Shown here in pieces: positions 28,982-41,232 of a stretch of DNA of 64,000 nucleotides. This DNA is from Fibrobacteria bacterium (GTDB taxonomy: Bacteria > Fibrobacterota > Fibrobacteria > UBA11236), in assembly GCA_025360005.1 (NCBI GenBank), contig JANYDA010000008.1, positions 186,001 to 250,000 on the forward strand, written 5' to 3'. The position numbers and the translations under genes were made by a program. How positions within the stretch are numbered: the first letter of the stretch is position 1; each line of letters begins with the position of its first letter. Under the pieces are notes generated by a model. The model was not told where the DNA came from. It saw only the letters and a program-made list of their open reading frames with translations, and searched no databases.

Positions 28982-30553
28982 TCAATCGTCAGAAAGCCGC
29001 CGCCACATTTCCAGATTGTAGGGATGTGGCGGCAGGCGTAAAGTGCGCACCCGCTCATACCCGGAATACAAGGCGTCCTCGCCCGGATAGAGCAGCCCTT
29101 CGTCTTTTCCCAACCGCAGTCCCACGATCCAATCCGGATCATAGCGTTCCTGCATGGCCGCCATACGCAGGAGATAGCTTTCCCCCACACTGGGCTTGCC
29201 CAGGTAAGGCAGCGCCTCCGGAGACAGCAAACCGTGCGTGTCCAGGATGCGGGCATGGGAATAGTATCCGAGGGCCCCTACTTCGTCGATCATCACCAGG
29301 GGTAACTTGCCGGGTACGGACAGGGAATCGATGATGCGGGCGGCCTCGCGGTAGCGTCCCTCGCGAGCAGCCTGGGCCAGGACATGCTTGGCGGGGAGAT
29401 GTTGGCGGAAAGTCTGCGCGGGTACGTACGCCAGGAACAGGAAAAGCCCTCCCCAGACCGCCGGCTCCGGCGCACGGCCGGCGGAGAGCCTATGCAGGCC
29501 GGCGACCAGGAACAGGATCAGGAACGGGAGCACGGGCAGGTAATACCAGGTGAACAGCGCGTAGCTGGCGCCGGAAAGCAGGAAGAAAAGGAAGTAGCAG
29601 AAAGGCCAGGCCAAAAGCGGCCAAGGCGCACGTTCCTCCGGGGCCTGCCTGCGGGCGAATCCCAGGGCCGCCCCCGCCAGGACGGCCAGGTTCAGGGCCG
29701 CGGTCAGGGTGGCGCCGCCCAAACAGGGTCCCTTATGGAATACGTTCAGGATCCAGGCGGCCAATCCTTCCCTGAATCCGATGTGGATTTCCAGGCGCTT
29801 GGCCAGGATGGAATGCGGGAGCCAATGCCCGTAGGCGTAGAGGTTGAAGGCGAAGAAGAGCGCCAGCCCTGCGGCGGCGGCCCCGGCGGCGATGGCCGCC
29901 TGGGTAACTTGCAAGTTTCCCCCGCGCCGCCGGCGCGACCATAAATGCAAAGGCACCAGCACCCCGGCCAAAAGCGCCCCTTCCGGCCGCGCCAATGCCG
30001 CCAAAAAAGCGATGATGGAGAGGGCCGGGAAAGGCCTTTGCGAATAGAATGCGAACCAGCTCCCGGCCAGCGCCAGGGCGGTGTACATGGGGGTTTCCAT
30101 GCCGTATGCGGATACCGCCAGGAAATTCACGCTCAAGGCATAGGCGGAAAGCGCCAGCAAGGAAAACGGTTGGCCCAAACGCAAACCGCGGGCCGCAATG
30201 CGGTGCAGGAAGAAGAGGCCGGACAGATCCCAGGCCAGGTTGGTGAAGTAGGCCAGGTAGGTATACCGCGTTGCGTGCAGGATGGCGCCTTCCAGGCCCA
30301 GCACCATGGTATGCAAGGGGGTGCTGGTGGCGCAGACGGGATTCTGCGCGGACATGATGGGACCCAGCCCGGCATTCCAGGAACGCGCGTGCGCCAGGGT
30401 GATGTAAGCGTCATCGCAGATAAGCACGCCGAAAGCGTATTTGAGGAGAGCGCAGGCGGCCAGGCAGAAGAGCAGGCCCATTGGGCCTAACAGGCCGGGA
30501 TAGCGGAGCGCGGAAGGCCGGCGGCCCGCGGGCATGGCGGCGTCCCGGTTCAC
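28982..30553 (-). CDS. GT-C-type membrane glycosyltransferase
   Basis: The gene begins at a GTG whose last two bases are shared with the pilB stop (ATGTGA). The protein has 523 residues with about ten or more transmembrane segments. The first loop carries LICDDAYITLAHARSWNAG, the acidic pair typical of GT-C transferases that use polyprenyl-linked sugars. A soluble C-terminal domain of about 140 residues follows. It could transfer a sugar to pilin, lipid or surface polysaccharide. Being coupled to pilB suggests a role in modifying exported pilin-like proteins, but this is inference. Confidence 0.7.
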   Translation of the reverse strand: MNRDAAMPAGRRPSALRYPGLLGPMGLLFCLAACALLKYAFGVLICDDAYITLAHARSWNAGLGPIMSAQNPVCATSTPLHTMVLGLEGAILHATRYTYLAYFTNLAWDLSGLFFLHRIAARGLRLGQPFSLLALSAYALSVNFLAVSAYGMETPMYTALALAGSWFAFYSQRPFPALSIIAFLAALARPEGALLAGVLVPLHLWSRRRRGGNLQVTQAAIAAGAAAAGLALFFAFNLYAYGHWLPHSILAKRLEIHIGFREGLAAWILNVFHKGPCLGGATLTAALNLAVLAGAALGFARRQAPEERAPWPLLAWPFCYFLFFLLSGASYALFTWYYLPVLPFLILFLVAGLHRLSAGRAPEPAVWGGLFLFLAYVPAQTFRQHLPAKHVLAQAAREGRYREAARIIDSLSVPGKLPLVMIDEVGALGYYSHARILDTHGLLSPEALPYLGKPSVGESYLLRMAAMQERYDPDWIVGLRLGKDEGLLYPGEDALYSGYERVRTLRLPPHPYNLEMWRRLSDD

Positions 30554-32457
30554 ATCTCGGCTTGCGATACGGAGACCACCTGTTCGATGGTGGTGAGGCC
30601 CGCCAGCGCCTTTTCCAACCCGTCCCGGCGCAAGGTGGCCATCCCCAGGTTGCGGATGGCGTACATCTTGATCTCCTCGCTGGATTTGCGTTCCAGGATC
30701 ATCTTATGCACATGCTCGTCCGGGACCAGCAATTCGAAAAGCGCGAGCCGGCCGCGGTAGCCGGTATTGTTGCAATTGTTGCAGCCCTTGCCTTGGAAGA
30801 AAGACGTGCCTGGCCGGATGCCGATGCCTTCCAGCACCACGTCCGGGACCTGCACCTGTTGCTTGCATTTCTCGCAGATGCGCCGGCACAGCCGCTGCGC
30901 CAGGACGCCCTTGACGCAAGAGGTGACCAGGAAAGGCTCCACGCCCATGTCCAGGAGGCGCGTGAAAGCGCCGGCGGCATCGTTGGTATGCAGGGTGCTG
31001 ATCACCAAATGGCCCGTGAGCGCGGCCTGGATCGCCATTTCCGAGGTTTCCTTATCGCGCATTTCGCCCAGCATGATGACATCCGGATCCTGGCGGAGGA
31101 TGGAGCGCATGCCCGCGGCGAAAGTGAATCCGGCCGCGTTGTTGATCTGGCCCTGGGTGATGCCGGGGATGTTCTTTTCCACCGGGTCTTCCATCGTCAC
31201 CACGTTCACGGAAGCAGACGCCACCCGCTGGATGAAGGCGTAGAGCGTGCTGGATTTGCCGCTGCCGGTGGGGCCGGTGGTGAGCAGGATGCCGTCCGGG
31301 AGTTCGATGAGCCGGTTGATGGCGGGGTAGACGGAGGCCGAGAAACCGATTTTGTCGAGGGTGGCGATCTCGGTGTTGGGATCGATGATGCGGATGACCA
31401 TTTTCTCGATGACGCCGCGCGAACGCAGGAGCATGGGGAAGGTGGAAAGCCGCAAATCCACTTCCTGGCCCTTGTACTGGATATGCGCACGCCCGTCCAG
31501 GGGCTTCCGCTTTTCCGCGATGTCCATGCCGCCGAGTACCTTGAGGCGCGAGACGATTTGCACCATCAGGCGCGCCGGAATGGGATTCTGTTCCGTCAGC
31601 TCGCCGTCGATGCGGTAGCGGACGCGCAGGTTGCGCTCCTGAGGCTCCAGATGCACGTCCGAGGCGCCCAGCCGGATGGCTTCGCTGATGATCAGGTTCA
31701 CGATCTTGATGATCTGGCGGCCTTCTTCATCGCCCACCAGCCCCTCATCGGACTTTTCCTCCTTGGCGCTCTCCAAGACCAGATCCTTGTCCTCGTCCCC
31801 GCCGATCAGATCGCTGAGGGTATCCTTGTCGCCCACGTAAGCGCGGCCGATGGCCGCCAGGATCTCCGCCTCCGTGCCGATCACCGGTTCCACGTCCTTG
31901 CCGGTCTTGAACTTGATATGATCCAACGAACGCAGGTTGGTGGGATCCACCATGGCCACGGTCAGCACGCCGTTGTTCTCGTACAAGGGAATGACTTTAT
32001 AGGAACGCGCCATCTCCTCCGAAACCATGCGCGTGATGTTCTGGTTGAATTTGAAATTCTCCAGGTTGATATGCTGGAGATCGAGCTGCGCGGCGAGCAC
32101 GTCCAGGAGCTTGGTCTCTTCGATGAATCCCAGCTTGACCAGGCACTTGCCCAGCGGAAGGCCGAAGGATTTCTGGCTGGCCAAGCCTTCCGCCAATTGC
32201 GCGGGCGTGATATAACCCTGGTCCACCAGGATCTCGCCGATGCGCTTGCGGTAGGAAAGCTCCAGCTGCTTGCCCAGCACCGCGTTGAGGGTATCCTCGT
32301 CGATGAAATTGAGCTTGACCAGCACCGTTCCCAGGCTGATGCCCGTGGTGGCGTGCTGCTCCAAAGCATGCTCCAACTGCTGCTGGTTGATATAGCCCTG
32401 CGACAGCAGGATCTCGCCGACCTTGCGCTTGTTACGTTTTACCTGTTGGATGCTCAT
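30550..32457 (-). CDS. pilB: Type IV pilus/type II secretion assembly ATPase (PilB/GspE)
   Basis: This 635-residue hexameric ATPase drives pilin or pseudopilin assembly from the cytoplasmic side. Two MshEN-like segments occupy residues about 8-120 (VGEILLSQGYINQQQLEHAL and a second GEILVDQGYITPAQLAEGL). The Walker A TGPTGSGKSS is near residue 395, the Asp box and Walker B LGEMRDKETSE near 460. A tetracysteine zinc site follows: C-R-R-I-C-E-K-C and CNNCNNTGYRGR. MshEN domains bind cyclic-di-GMP in MshE, so c-di-GMP input is possible. It is remote from pilM-Q and adjacent to thiL. Confidence 0.93.
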   Translation of the reverse strand: MSIQQVKRNKRKVGEILLSQGYINQQQLEHALEQHATTGISLGTVLVKLNFIDEDTLNAVLGKQLELSYRKRIGEILVDQGYITPAQLAEGLASQKSFGLPLGKCLVKLGFIEETKLLDVLAAQLDLQHINLENFKFNQNITRMVSEEMARSYKVIPLYENNGVLTVAMVDPTNLRSLDHIKFKTGKDVEPVIGTEAEILAAIGRAYVGDKDTLSDLIGGDEDKDLVLESAKEEKSDEGLVGDEEGRQIIKIVNLIISEAIRLGASDVHLEPQERNLRVRYRIDGELTEQNPIPARLMVQIVSRLKVLGGMDIAEKRKPLDGRAHIQYKGQEVDLRLSTFPMLLRSRGVIEKMVIRIIDPNTEIATLDKIGFSASVYPAINRLIELPDGILLTTGPTGSGKSSTLYAFIQRVASASVNVVTMEDPVEKNIPGITQGQINNAAGFTFAAGMRSILRQDPDVIMLGEMRDKETSEMAIQAALTGHLVISTLHTNDAAGAFTRLLDMGVEPFLVTSCVKGVLAQRLCRRICEKCKQQVQVPDVVLEGIGIRPGTSFFQGKGCNNCNNTGYRGRLALFELLVPDEHVHKMILERKSSEEIKMYAIRNLGMATLRRDGLEKALAGLTTIEQVVSVSQAEM

Positions 32458-35030: not shown

Positions 35031-36557
35031 TTAAGGATAATCCGGTCTACCCCGCGCGGAATCCACGGGAGCCCGGCCTCTGAGAATGTCCTGTGAGGCC
35101 GCCGGCGCCGCCTTGGGAGCGTAATCCCCGTAGACTCCCACTTCATCCTTCGCATCCTTGGGATCGTTTTTCGCCAGGTCCTCGCCGTGGGTGGCGGAGG
35201 CCACGATATGCGGCGTCACGAAGATGATCAGGTCGCGCTTGCTGGAAACGGTGGCGATATGCTTGAACAGGTAGCCGATCAAGGGGATGTCCTTAAGCAG
35301 CGGAACGCCGGTTTCCGATTCCGTTTCTTCCTTGGTAGTGAGGCCGGCGATGACCACGGTCTCGCCATCGGCCACCACCACCGTGGTCTTGGCGCTTTGC
35401 TTTTGCAGGATGGTGCCCGCGCTGGCGTCCACGCGAAAGGAATTCTTCTCCGGATTCAGATCCAGCAAAACCCGGCCGTCCGCGGTCACGTGCGGCGTTA
35501 CCGTCAGGGAAGTCCCCGCGTCCTGCAATTGGATGGCCTGGCGTCCGTTGGCGTCCAGCACGCGGATAGGCACCTGTTCGCCCATGAAGATGCGCGCTTC
35601 CGTATTATCGATGGTGGTGATTTGCGGCTTGGCCAGCACTTCGCCTTTCAGGTTCTTGACAAGGTTGGCCACCGCCACCGCTAGGTTTCCGTTCAAGAGA
35701 CCGAAAGCGAATTGGGTGGTCGCGCCGGCCACGCCGCCCACCGCTGCGCCCGCCGAACTGGAACTGCCGGAGCTGCCGTCGCTGCTGGATGACTGCGCGC
35801 CCTGGTTGGATGTCCCCAACATGCTGAAGTCGGTTTTGGTGGTGGGCAATTTGCCCGCATTGTCGCGCAGGGCGTTTATGGATCCGCCCCCTACCCCGAA
35901 TTGCCAGTCCACGCCCACTTCGCGCATGGCATCCGCGTCCACCTGGATCAACTGGGCCTGGATGTTGACCTGGTAGGTCTCGATGTCCAGATCCTTGACG
36001 GCGGCTCGGATCTCGTGGATGTTAGAGCGCGTGTCGAAGATGAGGAGGGCGTTGTTGCGCTCCACCACGTTGATGCGGCCGCGCGGCGAGAGCAGGCCTT
36101 TGACCGATTCTTCCAGATCCTTGGCTTTCGCATTCTTGAGCTTGATGATATCGCGCATGAGCGGGGCCATGGAACCGGCCTGCTGCAAGGCCGCGGCGTT
36201 CTCCACGGACGACTTGTTGAAGTCGGCCACGTTCTGCACGTACAGGTAGTTGTCCTCCACCAGGTATTTCAGACTGTACATCTGGCACAGGATGAGCATG
36301 GCTTCCTGCCAGGTCTTGTCCGTCAATTGCAGGTTCACGTTCTGCCCGGACACGTTGGGGGCCACCACGATGTCCACGCGGCCGGAGGCGGACAGCGCCT
36401 TGAACGCGGACCGGATCTCCATATTGGAGAAGTTGAAGTTCTGGCGATGGGTGAGACCGCCCACCGCTTGGGCCGCGGGCGCGTTGGCATCCTGGGCCAT
36501 GGCCGCGGTCGCCAGACAGGCCGCTACGCACATGTTCCTCATAGTCGCAGAAATCAT
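35031..36557 (-). CDS. pilQ: Type IV pilus secretin (PilQ/GspD-like)
   Basis: This 508-residue outer-membrane channel has a signal peptide ending near MAMAQD. Residues about 30-110 form an STN-type domain (SFKALSASGRVDIVVAPNVSG). A secretin N1-type domain follows (IIKLKNAKAKDLEESVKGLL). The C-terminal secretin core has VPIRVLDANG and the hallmark PLLKDIPLIGYLF near residue 435. A Ser/Gly-rich loop (about 245-275) lies in between. Unlike classic PilQ it has no N-terminal AMIN domains; those occur in the upstream gene. It overlaps that gene by 4 bp. Confidence 0.9.
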   Translation of the reverse strand: MISATMRNMCVAACLATAAMAQDANAPAAQAVGGLTHRQNFNFSNMEIRSAFKALSASGRVDIVVAPNVSGQNVNLQLTDKTWQEAMLILCQMYSLKYLVEDNYLYVQNVADFNKSSVENAAALQQAGSMAPLMRDIIKLKNAKAKDLEESVKGLLSPRGRINVVERNNALLIFDTRSNIHEIRAAVKDLDIETYQVNIQAQLIQVDADAMREVGVDWQFGVGGGSINALRDNAGKLPTTKTDFSMLGTSNQGAQSSSSDGSSGSSSSAGAAVGGVAGATTQFAFGLLNGNLAVAVANLVKNLKGEVLAKPQITTIDNTEARIFMGEQVPIRVLDANGRQAIQLQDAGTSLTVTPHVTADGRVLLDLNPEKNSFRVDASAGTILQKQSAKTTVVVADGETVVIAGLTTKEETESETGVPLLKDIPLIGYLFKHIATVSSKRDLIIFVTPHIVASATHGEDLAKNDPKDAKDEVGVYGDYAPKAAPAASQDILRGRAPVDSARGRPDYP

Positions 36558-38878
36558 TTTTTAGCCCCTTCCTTCGAGGAAACCAACTTCAGGCTATAGG
36601 ATCGCGCGATCCCGTATTCGCTGATGTCGAAGGTCACCGCGTCCCTGGTAATATGGGAGACGCGCCCGTTGTGCACGGGATCGCCTTCCTTGATGGTGAA
36701 GGACACGCCCGCTTCGCGGCTGTGCTCGAGCACGGCCATCGGCTGCTGCGCCTGCCAGATGATGCCCACCACCTTCATCTGATCGATATCGATGCCATTG
36801 TCGGTGGAGCCTTGCTCAACCGGTATGAAGGGATCCCTGCGGCCATAGCTGTTGTAGGAGACGCGGTTCTCTTCGGGCTCGACGCGTTTCTTCTCTTCTT
36901 CCGCCGCCAATTTCTCCTGGGCCAGCTTGGCCGCCAATTCCGGGTTGTCCGCGATGGCCAGCTTGGGCCCGCCCATGGCGGTTTGCCCGGCCGGATTGTC
37001 CGCATCGGTTTTCGCGGCCGGCTCCGGTTTGCCGGGGTTCTTTCCCGCCGCCTTGGCCGCTCCCGCAGCCGACGGAGCAGGGGCTTCCTGCATCTGGTCG
37101 GATTGCTCCGGCGCTTCTTGCGGTTGGGCCTTGGCGGTCGCTTTCGCCGCTTCCCTGGCCGCCTTGGCTGCCGCTAGGGCGGCTTTCGCCGAGTCCGCTG
37201 AAACCCGGGCGCGCGCCTTCCGGTCGGCCTTGAGCGAATCCGCCTGCGCCTTGGCCAACACCTTCGCGGCCAGCGCTTCCGCTTTCTGCTTGGCAATCTC
37301 CTCCGCCTTGCGGGCCTTCTCCTCTTCCTTGGCCTGGGCCGCGGCCGCCTTAGCCGCCGACGCCGCCAGCATGGCCTGCTTGGCCTCTATGCGGCCCTGA
37401 ATGGTCTTCTCCTGCACCTTGCTCAGTTCGTCCTCGTACACGGCCTCGCCCGCCTTGATGTATCCCGTATCGGAACCGGTGATAACGCGCAGGTTACCCT
37501 GCTGGTTGTCGATGCGGACCACCTTCTCGCCGATGGGGATCTTCCTGATCAGCTTTCCCTTGGCCCCCGGAGACGACTTCAAGGCAACGGAATCCCTGTA
37601 CATCACCATGGCCTTGGCGCTCCTGCCTACGGAGAAGGTGCGGCTGGATGACAAACCCTTGCCCGGCCGCGCCGACTCCAGGGCCTGGCCATCGGCAAAC
37701 GCCGACTTCACCGGATCCGGACCGTCGGCCGTTGCCGTTTCAGCAACGGGCGTCGCCGTTTCAACCACGCTTTCGCTTTCCTTGGCCTGGGGCTTGAGGG
37801 AGGTCCACTTGAAGGCCGGACCTGCTCCGCCTGGTAAGGGACCGGAAAGAGCGATGCCGTCCTCATGCGCCGCCGCCTGCGCGCTCCCGCCGGGGGCGAG
37901 CTGGATACGCAATTGCAATTTACCCCCTTTGACGGCGATCTTGATCCGCTTGTAAAGGCCATTCTTGGGCAGCAGGTAGTCCTTCTGCGCCAGCCCGGAA
38001 ACGGCGTTATCCAACGCGGCCTCCAGCCAGAGGGAATCCTTGGCGTTCCGCCGGGGCGCGAAGGTGGCGCCCAGGGGGGGATTGAAAACCAGGAACAAAT
38101 CCGCCTGGGAAGAAGTGACGATCATCTTCACTTCCCTGAGCGATGATGGAGTAACTTTTGCGTTACCCCCGTCCGATCCCGCTTGGACCCCGGCTTTCTC
38201 GGCAGGAGAGCCGGGGATGGGAGGTTCGGCGGAAGCGGATGCATTCTTCGGGCCTTTGGCGCCTTTGGCGCCGGACGCGGCGGCGTTTTGGGAAAGCCTG
38301 CCGGCCGTTTTCCCCGCGGATGCTTCTAACGATTTGCCGTCCGGCGGAGACTCCGCCTTCGCCGACAGATAAGCGGCTTCCGCTTTCAGGGAGGCGGACA
38401 GGGACCAGCTGTACTTGCCCTTGGCCTGGCCGAGCATCACCTTGAGCACGCCTTTGGGAGCCGGTTGCAGCGGCGCATCGCCCAAGGGCGGCTGCTTGAA
38501 TTTCAGTTCCAGGCCCAGGAAATTCTTCCCGCTGGGCGTGGTCACCTTCTTGAGGGTGATCTCCTCCAACTCCGGGCTCTTGGCCTCCAGCGGGTGCCGG
38601 CCCAATGGATAGGCCGTTTCCGTTTCCAGGAAAGACAATGCAATGATGCCTTTGGTCAGATCCGTCTTCTGGAAATAGAGGGGGTAATCGCCCTCGGATC
38701 CGTTGGGAGCGAAAGTCAGTTTGAGATGCGTCCGGCCCGCCGCGGAAATCAGGGAAATGTCCTTGAGTTCATGGGCCGGAGCGGGAACGGCGGAAGCGAA
38801 GAAGACCCAAGCCGCCAGCCACAAAACGGGCGCGGGGGCGTTGGCTAGGGGAAATCGGATTGCTTTTCTCATTTTCAC
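36554..38878 (-). CDS. AMIN-SH3-PilP fusion-like pilus protein
   Basis: This 774-residue protein has a signal peptide (1-35). Residues about 36-160 and 255-370 look like two AMIN-type beta-domains (HELKDISLISAAGRTHLKL; SLREVKMIVTSSQADLFLVF). Residues about 420-490 are a bacterial SH3-like domain (MVMYRDSVALKSSPGAKGKL, GNLRVITGSDTGYI). A long Ala/Lys helical stretch, rich in AKA repeats, covers about 500-660. The last 100 residues match PilP: SYGRRDPFIPVEQG, GIDIDQMKVVGIIWQ and GDPVHNGRVSHI. PilP links the inner PilN-O platform to the secretin. The operon position (between pilO and pilQ) is exactly that of pilP. Confidence 0.82.
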   Translation of the reverse strand: MKMRKAIRFPLANAPAPVLWLAAWVFFASAVPAPAHELKDISLISAAGRTHLKLTFAPNGSEGDYPLYFQKTDLTKGIIALSFLETETAYPLGRHPLEAKSPELEEITLKKVTTPSGKNFLGLELKFKQPPLGDAPLQPAPKGVLKVMLGQAKGKYSWSLSASLKAEAAYLSAKAESPPDGKSLEASAGKTAGRLSQNAAASGAKGAKGPKNASASAEPPIPGSPAEKAGVQAGSDGGNAKVTPSSLREVKMIVTSSQADLFLVFNPPLGATFAPRRNAKDSLWLEAALDNAVSGLAQKDYLLPKNGLYKRIKIAVKGGKLQLRIQLAPGGSAQAAAHEDGIALSGPLPGGAGPAFKWTSLKPQAKESESVVETATPVAETATADGPDPVKSAFADGQALESARPGKGLSSSRTFSVGRSAKAMVMYRDSVALKSSPGAKGKLIRKIPIGEKVVRIDNQQGNLRVITGSDTGYIKAGEAVYEDELSKVQEKTIQGRIEAKQAMLAASAAKAAAAQAKEEEKARKAEEIAKQKAEALAAKVLAKAQADSLKADRKARARVSADSAKAALAAAKAAREAAKATAKAQPQEAPEQSDQMQEAPAPSAAGAAKAAGKNPGKPEPAAKTDADNPAGQTAMGGPKLAIADNPELAAKLAQEKLAAEEEKKRVEPEENRVSYNSYGRRDPFIPVEQGSTDNGIDIDQMKVVGIIWQAQQPMAVLEHSREAGVSFTIKEGDPVHNGRVSHITRDAVTFDISEYGIARSYSLKLVSSKEGAKK

Positions 38879-39465
38879 CGTTTGGAAGTGAAGGTCGTCA
38901 GTTGGAAGTTGGCCACGATGGTGCGCGGGGTCTCGCCATGTTCCTTGGCATCCTCCACTTCCTTATCCAGATCCGGGGCCTTTTCGATCTGGAGCTTGTT
39001 GATGGCGGTAGGGTAGCGGAAATTCGCGACTTCGCCGAACAGCATGCCGAGCGCATGGTAGCTGGATGAAATGGTGATGGCGTAATGGTTTTCCTTGTAG
39101 AATTCCTTTTCCTCCACGCGCAGCGGCAGGAACTTGGTCGGCACCGTGAGGGACTTGCGGGTGACCGCGGTAAGGTCGATCAAGCGGCGCGGTATCAGCT
39201 CCTCATCGGGGAACATCTCCTGCAGCTTGGTGAATTCCGCGTTGGCCAATTCGATTTCCGCTTCCAGATCCTTGAGGCGCTGCTTCTGCGCCAGGATTTG
39301 CCGCAGCTCGCCTTTCTTCTTGCGGATATCGCCTTGCAGGCGTTCCAGCTTGTCGGAATACTCCACGTATTCGGTGTCGTAGAAGGTATAACCCAGATAG
39401 GCGATGATGGCCAGGGCGGCCCCGGCGAAAAGCCAAAGCCTGGCGTTAAGGGTAAGGCCTTTCAT
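38875..39465 (-). CDS. pilO: Pilus assembly protein PilO
   Basis: This 196-residue inner-membrane protein has a short N-terminal cytoplasmic segment, a TM helix at about 8-27, a coiled coil (YSDKLERLQGDIRKKKGEL) and a C-terminal ferredoxin-like periplasmic domain with YHALGMLFGEVANF. It pairs with PilN to form the alignment subcomplex. It overlaps pilN and the PilP-like gene by 4 bp each. The length is close to family average. Confidence 0.88.
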   Translation of the reverse strand: MKGLTLNARLWLFAGAALAIIAYLGYTFYDTEYVEYSDKLERLQGDIRKKKGELRQILAQKQRLKDLEAEIELANAEFTKLQEMFPDEELIPRRLIDLTAVTRKSLTVPTKFLPLRVEEKEFYKENHYAITISSSYHALGMLFGEVANFRYPTAINKLQIEKAPDLDKEVEDAKEHGETPRTIVANFQLTTFTSKR

Positions 39466-40148
39466 GCGCCCTCCTTCTTGGGGGGTTCCGCGGGAGGCGG
39501 TGATGCGGGAGCAGCGGCCGGATCCGCCGCCATGTGGTCGAGGCCGACGTTGGGATTCATATTGATGCGGATGGTGAACATGAAGGAGCTGGTTTTGGCA
39601 TCCTTCTGCAGTTCGATGCTGTTGAGGAACACCTTGGAGAAATATTCGTTCTTCTCAAGCTCGATCATGTATTCCGCGATTTCGGGAAAGATATAGGTCC
39701 GGCCCTTCAGCTCCAGTTCATTGTCGTTGGCTTCGGACTGCTTCATGGTCTCGATCCACATGTTGAGCGGCATCGATTTGTTGATGCCCTCCAGGATGCG
39801 CACCCACTTCTTCTTGCTGACGCTGATGCTCTTGAGGGAATTGTTCTTGGCCATCTTCTCGTCGCGCAGCTTTTCCAGCTCTTTGATGCGCGCGCCCACG
39901 TAGGAGTTGGCGCCTATCTCCTTCTGCACGTCCGCCAGTTCCGCGCGCTTGTTCTCCAGATTGGCCCGGAAGAAGGACTGGCCTACCATGTAGGCCGCCC
40001 CCACCGCTATCAGCGCCACCGTGGAAATGAGGATGCGCATGTCGATCAGGAACGAATAGTCCTTGCGGACCACCCGGTACTCGATCGGCAGCAGGTTCAC
40101 ATGGATGAAATCCGGCGCTTTTGCTTCCAGGGATTGCGATGACGCCAT
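39462..40148 (-). CDS. pilN: Pilus assembly protein PilN
   Basis: This 228-residue protein has a cytoplasmic N-terminus with HVNLLPIEYR at 17-26, the conserved peptide that docks in PilM. A TM helix at about 40-60 and a periplasmic coiled coil plus ferredoxin-like domain follow. The C-terminal 20 residues are Ala/Pro-rich. It lies 1 bp after pilM and overlaps pilO by 4 bp. Confidence 0.88.
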   Translation of the reverse strand: MASSQSLEAKAPDFIHVNLLPIEYRVVRKDYSFLIDMRILISTVALIAVGAAYMVGQSFFRANLENKRAELADVQKEIGANSYVGARIKELEKLRDEKMAKNNSLKSISVSKKKWVRILEGINKSMPLNMWIETMKQSEANDNELELKGRTYIFPEIAEYMIELEKNEYFSKVFLNSIELQKDAKTSSFMFTIRINMNPNVGLDHMAADPAAAPASPPPAEPPKKEGA

Positions 40149-40149
40149 G

Positions 40150-41232
40150 CTATATCCGCCTCAAGGCCAGCCCGGTCGCCACCGTCAGGATGGTGGAGAT
40201 GTTCTCGGGGATGGGTCCGCTGAATTTCTTTTCGTCGTAGGCGATGTGCTGGAGCGGGTTGGTGATCTCCACCTCCACGTTGTGGCGCTTGGCCAGGATG
40301 CCCGCCAGATCGCGGATGCATGCGCCGCCGCCGCACAAGACCATCTTCTCAACCTTGAGGTTATTCTCGGAGGATTGGAAGTAGCTGAAGGCCAGATCGA
40401 TACCCACCGAGAGCTCCTCCGCGGAGAACTCGATGCTGCGGTTGAGCGTAGCCGCGTTGTATTTCTCGATGTTCTTCCCCCGCAGGATGTTGGCGGCCTC
40501 TTCCCGCTCCACCTTCAGGTTCTTCATGATCGTCTTCACGAAGAAGTCGCATGCGGTGGCGATGTCGCGCGTGGAATGGTATGTCCCGTTCTTGAGGAAG
40601 GTGAGGTTTGTGAGATGCTCGCCGATGTTTATGAGCGAGACCACCTTGTTGCCGTCGTCGGGCGGGGCGGAAAGCAGGTAGGCGTTGGTAACCGCGAAGG
40701 CGTCCACGTCGATCACAACCGGACGCAGGCCGGCCTCGTAAAGAAGGTCGATATAGGACTGCATTACCTGGAGCTTGGCCGCCACCAGCAGCACTTCCAT
40801 CTCCTCGTTGTCTTCGCTCTTGTGCAGGATCTTGTAGTCGAGCGTGATGTTGTCCACATCGAAAGGGCTGCGTTGGCCCGCTTCCATGAGGATCACTTCC
40901 TCGTCGCTTTCGCCCTTATTGGACTTGAGCTTGATGCGATCGGCGATCACGCCGTAGGACCAGGAGAGGGAAAGGATCACGTCCTTGATCTTGCCGGTGG
41001 GATCAGTGCGATGGACCAATGCCGTCAATGATTGCAGCAGTTCATCGCGGTTCTTGATCTCGCCGCCGACGATGGTTTCCGGCTTGAGCACATGGATGCC
41101 GGCGCCCAACAGCACCGGGCCCCCGGGCCTATGGGCGACGCGCGATATCTTGATGCTGTAGTTGCCGATATCGATTCCCACGGTGGTGGGTTCGCCCTGG
41201 ATAGCGTTTAGAATTTTTTCCTTGATGCCCAA
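40150..41232 (-). CDS. pilM: Pilus assembly ATPase-fold protein PilM
   Basis: This 360-residue actin-like cytoplasmic protein opens with phosphate-1 motif VGIDIGNYSIKISRVA (residues 18-33) and carries VLCGGGACIRDLAGIL near residue 300. PilM binds ATP and the PilN N-terminal peptide, joining the cytoplasmic motor to the inner-membrane platform. It heads the M-N-O-P-Q run. The 426-bp gap upstream is a large palindrome. Confidence 0.93.
   Translation of the reverse strand: MGIKEKILNAIQGEPTTVGIDIGNYSIKISRVAHRPGGPVLLGAGIHVLKPETIVGGEIKNRDELLQSLTALVHRTDPTGKIKDVILSLSWSYGVIADRIKLKSNKGESDEEVILMEAGQRSPFDVDNITLDYKILHKSEDNEEMEVLLVAAKLQVMQSYIDLLYEAGLRPVVIDVDAFAVTNAYLLSAPPDDGNKVVSLINIGEHLTNLTFLKNGTYHSTRDIATACDFFVKTIMKNLKVEREEAANILRGKNIEKYNAATLNRSIEFSAEELSVGIDLAFSYFQSSENNLKVEKMVLCGGGACIRDLAGILAKRHNVEVEITNPLQHIAYDEKKFSGPIPENISTILTVATGLALRRI

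Follow-up and report, generated by a model that had tools for sequence, protein, structure and literature searches.

A long PilP with predicted AMIN-fold and SH3 domains beside an AMIN-less PilQ in the type IV pilus operons of Fibrobacterota

The AMIN domains of the secretin PilQ are reported to bind peptidoglycan and to set the localization of type IVa pilus (T4aP) machines, in both P. aeruginosa (PMC5285504) and M. xanthus (PMC10653833). Which component, then, would hold such a machine at the cell wall when the secretin has no AMIN domain? The question is raised by a locus of a Fibrobacteria bacterium (Fibrobacterota; UBA11236; assembly GCA_025360005.1, contig JANYDA010000008.1, positions 186,001-250,000 of the forward strand), in which an AMIN-less secretin gene stands next to an unusually long gene in the pilP position. 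This whole stretch of 64,000 nt is referred to below as the window.

The operon and the identity of the 774-aa protein

With Pfam and NCBIfam we recognised in the window PilM, PilN and PilO, together with a PilB/GspE-type ATPase and a PilQ-type secretin that lacks AMIN. The genes considered here are the following.

30550..32457, minus strand: PilB/GspE-type assembly ATPase, close by (TIGR02538 E=3.2e-167, under the curated cut-off)
35031..36557, minus strand: pilQ, AMIN-less secretin, 508 aa, N-terminus starting at N0
36554..38878, minus strand: long PilP gene, 774 aa, GTG start
38875..39465, minus strand: pilO (PF04350 E=5.5e-11)
39462..40148, minus strand: pilN (PF05137 E=2.8e-12)
40150..41232, minus strand: pilM (PF11104 E=7e-49)

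The long ORF is placed between pilO and the secretin gene, with a 4-base overlap at each junction, and this tight pilM-N-O-P-Q order assigns it to PilP by position. A sequencing frameshift or a chance gene fusion was rejected as the source of its length, as the gene is a single open frame in more than 100 genomes. The ATPase at 30550-32457 carries MshEN/c-di-GMP-type N-terminal domains, which suggests a c-di-GMP control of pilus extension.

The 774-aa ORF is a PilP. Its match to the Pfam PilP model (PF04351) is weak (E=0.041), covers only the HR half (residues 697-750) and misses the gathering cut-off (14.2 bits vs 25.6), a control PilP reaching 146.7 bits; we read this score as divergence and not as absence, because both profile and fold comparisons match PilP. 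Precisely, the C-terminal tails of 22 homologues were aligned, with a mean column identity of 62% and with invariant Y, G, RDPF and HR residues, and the profile of these tails found M. xanthus PilP as its best match in the PDB (E=0.0033), in an alignment spanning the G+RDPF motif and the HR core. Foldseek, run with the full-length model, returned PilP 3jc8_Pa first and PilP 2y4y and 2ivw within the top four, all with probability 1.00. An HR domain with the RDPF motif is hence present by alignment, profile and fold, and these two features, together with the position between pilO and pilQ, are common to the T4aP PilP proteins of PF04351 (M. xanthus 3jc8, P. aeruginosa 2y4y, N. meningitidis 2ivw).

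The 508-aa secretin is PilQ-type (TIGR02515 E=1.7e-83) and consists of N0/STN, Secretin_N and Secretin domains. Neither Pfam nor NCBIfam found an AMIN domain in it, in agreement with an earlier note, made from the sequence alone, that had described it as AMIN-less. The genome's other three secretins have no AMIN match either, nor has any other gene of the genome, and no second PilP was matched; a separate pilP or an AMIN-secretin elsewhere in the genome, which the same note had named as evidence against its reading, was therefore not found. In a classic control locus (L191) a 175-aa PilP (6e-43) and a PilQ with two AMIN stretches (2e-21) were recognised.

A second pilin-rich locus of the same genome (L003:2849-3439, L036:8747-10333) encodes a 528-aa secretin behind a 196-aa protein, the end of which resembles a GspC/PilP HR domain and has no Pfam match. 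Two more GspD-like secretins are encoded at L035:8202-10478 and L037:7136-9547.

Predicted domains ahead of the PilP tail

We built an AlphaFold2 model of the 774-aa PilP from 37 aligned sequences. From the N-terminus onwards, the following parts were distinguished.

38774..38878, minus strand: signal peptide, about residues 1-35, no lipobox cysteine (model helix 16-28)
38402..38773, minus strand: AMIN-fold domain 1, residues 36-159 (pLDDT about 80-96; Foldseek matches to PilQ 3jc8_Qa and 4aqz)
37796..38146, minus strand: AMIN-fold domain 2, residues 245-361 (pLDDT about 80-95; Foldseek match to PilQ across both domains)
37436..37612, minus strand: bacterial SH3 domain, residues 423-481 (pLDDT about 95)
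37148..37420, minus strand: Ala/Lys/Glu-rich single predicted helix, residues 487-577 (91 residues, about 13.6 nm if straight)
36944..37147, minus strand: disordered linker, residues 578-645 (mostly pLDDT <50)
36890..36943, minus strand: short helix in the model, residues 646-663, candidate for binding PilN/PilO by comparison with known PilP proteins
36575..36856, minus strand: PilP tail, with the RDPF motif at 36827-36838 and the HR domain core at residues 701-764

Overall, this order of parts bears out the earlier note, which had read the gene as AMIN-like regions, an SH3 domain, a long helix and a PilP end, and the prediction of the protein alone contains both the AMIN-type and the SH3 folds that it had expected. 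A Pfam PDZ_6 match was rejected as chance, since it covers 14 residues in a low-confidence stretch.

The two beta-domains are confidently modelled and keep a pLDDT of about 90 when residues 31-375 are folded separately. With this region, Foldseek returned M. xanthus PilQ at the top (E=2e-3, probability 1.00, 342 columns, both domains), the B2 domain of N. meningitidis PilQ at 0.99 (4aqz) and PilQ 4av2 at 0.91, all the remaining listed folds having a probability of 0.35 or less; these E-values are modest, and 3jc8, the top target, is an integrative model, whereas 4aqz is a solved structure. Searches by sequence gave less. The Pfam AMIN model (PF11741) did not match the window PilP and reached at best E=0.088, in one member, among the 22 class homologues; hhalign of the N-terminal domains against AMIN sets was not significant, a comparison of little power, as the known pair of AmiC and PilQ AMIN domains fails in it too.

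This lack of significant sequence similarity would fit beta-domains that are an unrelated sandwich, AMIN-like by convergence, in which case only the PilP and SH3 parts of the assignment would be correct. We consider this very improbable, because no other sandwich comes near the PilQ AMIN structures in Foldseek probability and because a bona fide AMIN domain occupies the same place in a PilP of WOR-3. In the latter (L134), the Pfam AMIN match is clear (E=2e-7, 31.4 bits vs a cut-off of 20.5), and the domain is followed by a PilP tail with the motif YNSYGRRDPF and then by a 421-aa AMIN-less PilQ, in the same gene position. HMM cross-searches between the WOR-3 AMIN and the Fibrobacterota domain 1 were not significant. 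As sequence methods fail in the Fibrobacterota PilP, the AMIN fold predicted for both of its beta-domains is called from the PilQ fold match together with the WOR-3 homologue. The fold alone does not prove peptidoglycan binding.

The WOR-3 protein is one of three minimal forms of 246-271 aa, the others belonging to Hydrothermota/WOR-3 (L136, L137), in which a signal peptide is followed by a single domain, AMIN or AMIN-like, and by the PilP tail, with a PilQ of 405-421 aa beside them. AMIN on PilP is thus not confined to Fibrobacterota, being found also in two distant bacterial lineages, WOR-3 and Hydrothermota. In the Hydrothermota/WOR-3 operons PilM and PilN are apparently fused in a 555-aa ORF (L136:4898-6565, L137:4574-6241).

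The SH3 domain of the window PilP matched SH3 domains of NlpC/P60-type proteins in Foldseek (probability 1.00). The window sequence itself is unmatched by the Pfam SH3_3 model, which at a permissive limit matches 12 of the 22 class members (best 2.5e-8) and, in other classes, members with 1.5e-16, 1.8e-13 and 1.5e-10, so that the assignment stands on the sequences of homologues and on the fold. The HMM comparisons suggested by the earlier note therefore came out unevenly: weak for PilP, clear for SH3_3 in the relatives and blank for AMIN. Bacterial SH3 domains have various ligands. The domain is optional, as there is no SH3 match in f4 (L043/L044), L179 and L176 and there are two stretches in L177.

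The Ala/Lys/Glu-rich helix is modelled as one helix (pLDDT about 90). It is similar to domain II of TolA and to the SH3-and-anchor proteins of TIGR04211, which also have such a helix beside an SH3 domain (weak match, E=2e-4, residues 431-595); unlike these, the window PilP has no C-terminal anchor and ends in the PilP HR domain, and the position of its helix is not conserved. In fact, within the window genus the helix follows SH3, as it does in one order-level relative, where it measures 147 aa; in Fibrobacter it lies between the AMIN-fold domains and reaches 180 aa, and elsewhere it is absent. The proposal that this helix spans the periplasm is accordingly not general. The helix is a spacer and no defining part of the protein; together with SH3, it is a variable add-on. 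Helices of 20-180 aa in L063, L083 and other Fibrobacter loci differ in position by lineage, as if spacers had been gained independently.

The Sec signal peptide of the window PilP lacks a lipobox, and residues 1-40 are free of Cys. A simple lipobox motif was present in 3 of 55 homologues, hence PilP here is probably not lipid-anchored. In many Fibrobacteraceae, L083 among them, AMIN-fold domain 1 starts with two Cys at a spacing of 4-5 residues (residues about 27-34), a possible disulfide.

Distribution in the phylum and origin

The earlier note had proposed to look for the same architecture in other Fibrobacterota, and there the proposal was confirmed. A homologue of the long PilP was present in 57 of the 61 genomes searched, the window's own included; the remaining four, of the same family, are without any secretin as well. 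A scan of genome contigs with the full-length window protein gave no match, while the tail alignment did, with a relative of the PilP tail in 150 of the 168 Fibrobacterota genomes. The order pilM-N-O-[long PilP]-[PilQ] recurred in all 36 loci read outside the window (21 in the class and 15 outside it), so the architecture is not due to chance, and every PilQ N-terminus read among these loci begins at N0, without AMIN. Only three genomes of the phylum have AMIN matches above the Pfam cut-off, two in what read as amidase genes and one in a different protein. The arrangement with AMIN-fold domains on PilP is phylum-wide. Compared with the T4aP PilP, an inner-membrane lipoprotein of about 175 aa, the Fibrobacterota PilP is longer (347-793 aa in intact loci), usually lacks a lipobox, scores below the Pfam cut-off and has in addition N-terminal AMIN-fold domains and often SH3. 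In Candidatus Fibrimonadaceae/Fibrimonadales (L056, L057, L130-L132) PilP is shorter, 380-384 aa, and without the first AMIN-fold domain.

The idea that AMIN had moved from secretin to PilP holds as to its present place, on PilP and not on PilQ; a transfer is just one possible history. An insertion of AMIN before pilP, or a separate gain on PilP and loss from PilQ, are equally possible. A slide of the boundary between pilP and pilQ was rejected, because AMIN lies upstream of the PilP core, at the N-terminus and so at the wrong end of the protein. The arrangements of WOR-3/Hydrothermota and of Fibrobacterota may derive from one shared event or from separate ones. Gain of AMIN by another component of a trans-envelope machine is known for AMIN-FliO and PflA (PMC12403147, PMC11870540), which are flagellar components and not a T4P PilP; the FliO case (PMC12403147) offers a precedent, by analogy, for such a relocation.

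Wall anchoring through PilP

In P. aeruginosa, the HR domain of PilP binds the N0 domain of PilQ, and the PilQ AMIN domains bind peptidoglycan and localize PilO (PMC5285504); in M. xanthus, PilQ AMIN is required for the polar recruitment of PilQ (PMC10653833). Compared with the AMIN-bearing PilQ of these two species and of the control L191, the window system has the same two tandem AMIN-fold modules in the same machine, here on PilP, with PilQ starting at N0. We consider it likely that the long protein is the PilP of a type IVa-like machine, its HR domain sitting on N0 of the AMIN-less PilQ and its AMIN-fold pair and SH3 holding or placing the complex at the peptidoglycan. The C-terminal HR domain would dock onto the N0 ring, the helix ahead of it (residues 646-663) would probably touch PilN/PilO, and the N-terminal AMIN-fold pair with SH3 would fix the complex to the wall or position it there, with a possible effect on the site of pilus assembly. 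Wall anchoring or targeting, which is the job of PilQ AMIN in classic T4aP, would then be done in trans via PilP and delivered by the HR-N0 contact, the long helix and the disordered stretch acting as a tether of lineage-specific length. Anchoring in trans is the simplest reading given that the AMIN-fold domains and SH3 are on PilP and that N0 is exposed as the first domain of PilQ; we infer that PilP rather than PilQ most likely anchors or targets the machine at the peptidoglycan. A functional precedent, again by analogy, is GspB/OutB of the type II secretion system, an HR-type protein that binds the secretin N0 as well as peptidoglycan and so ties the secretin to the wall (PMC9239104); OutB does so through a C-terminal extension, whereas here the wall modules would be N-terminal.

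The beta-domains could instead be AMIN-derived and have lost peptidoglycan binding, serving as a scaffold, for example an outer ring round the PilQ base, with SH3 or another protein as the anchor. A fold that stays while the AMIN sequence signal is gone fits relaxed or changed binding, and the number of domains varies. We regard this scaffold as unlikely, since lineages without an SH3 match (f4: L043/L044; L179) retain AMIN-like N-terminal regions, so that this region accompanies the PilP tail more constantly than SH3 does. Much less probable still is that anchoring is dispensable, or comes from a TsaP/FimV-like LysM protein, and that the N-terminal region binds a pilotin, PilY1-like proteins or a substrate: LysM proteins do anchor secretins of other bacteria (PMC9239104), but AMIN-fold and SH3 each belong to the typical cell-wall modules, and it is specifically PilQ that the AMIN-fold domains match.

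If anchoring through PilP is accepted, a more tentative reading, to which we give somewhat less than even chances, is that PilMNOP finds septal or polar peptidoglycan without PilQ, via AMIN-PilP, and then recruits the secretin, with the order of assembly reversed. It would cover Fibrobacterota and some WOR-3/Hydrothermota. A survey has proposed that whether the secretin has AMIN or lacks it tracks with polar or peritrichous pili (PMC10653833), and the loss of AMIN from secretins was said to merit investigation (PMC7545093); a reversed order would mean polar piliation with AMIN-less secretins, contrary to that correlation.

In the literature covered, which leaves out most subscription papers, we found no paper joining an AMIN domain, PilP, a secretin and SH3, and none joining PilP, an SH3 domain and type IV pili. 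A published gene table for T4P of Fibrobacteres has rows for PilM, N, O and Q and no row for PilP (PMC4704652). The unrecognised PilP of the phylum is now supplied. Its predicted AMIN-fold domains, missing from the secretin and present on the partner, are overlooked when PilQ alone is scored, and this challenges the idea that an AMIN-less pore means a machine without wall-targeting. In Fibrobacter, type IV pili are linked to the attachment to cellulose, and through this link the machine matters for the digestion of fibre in the rumen.
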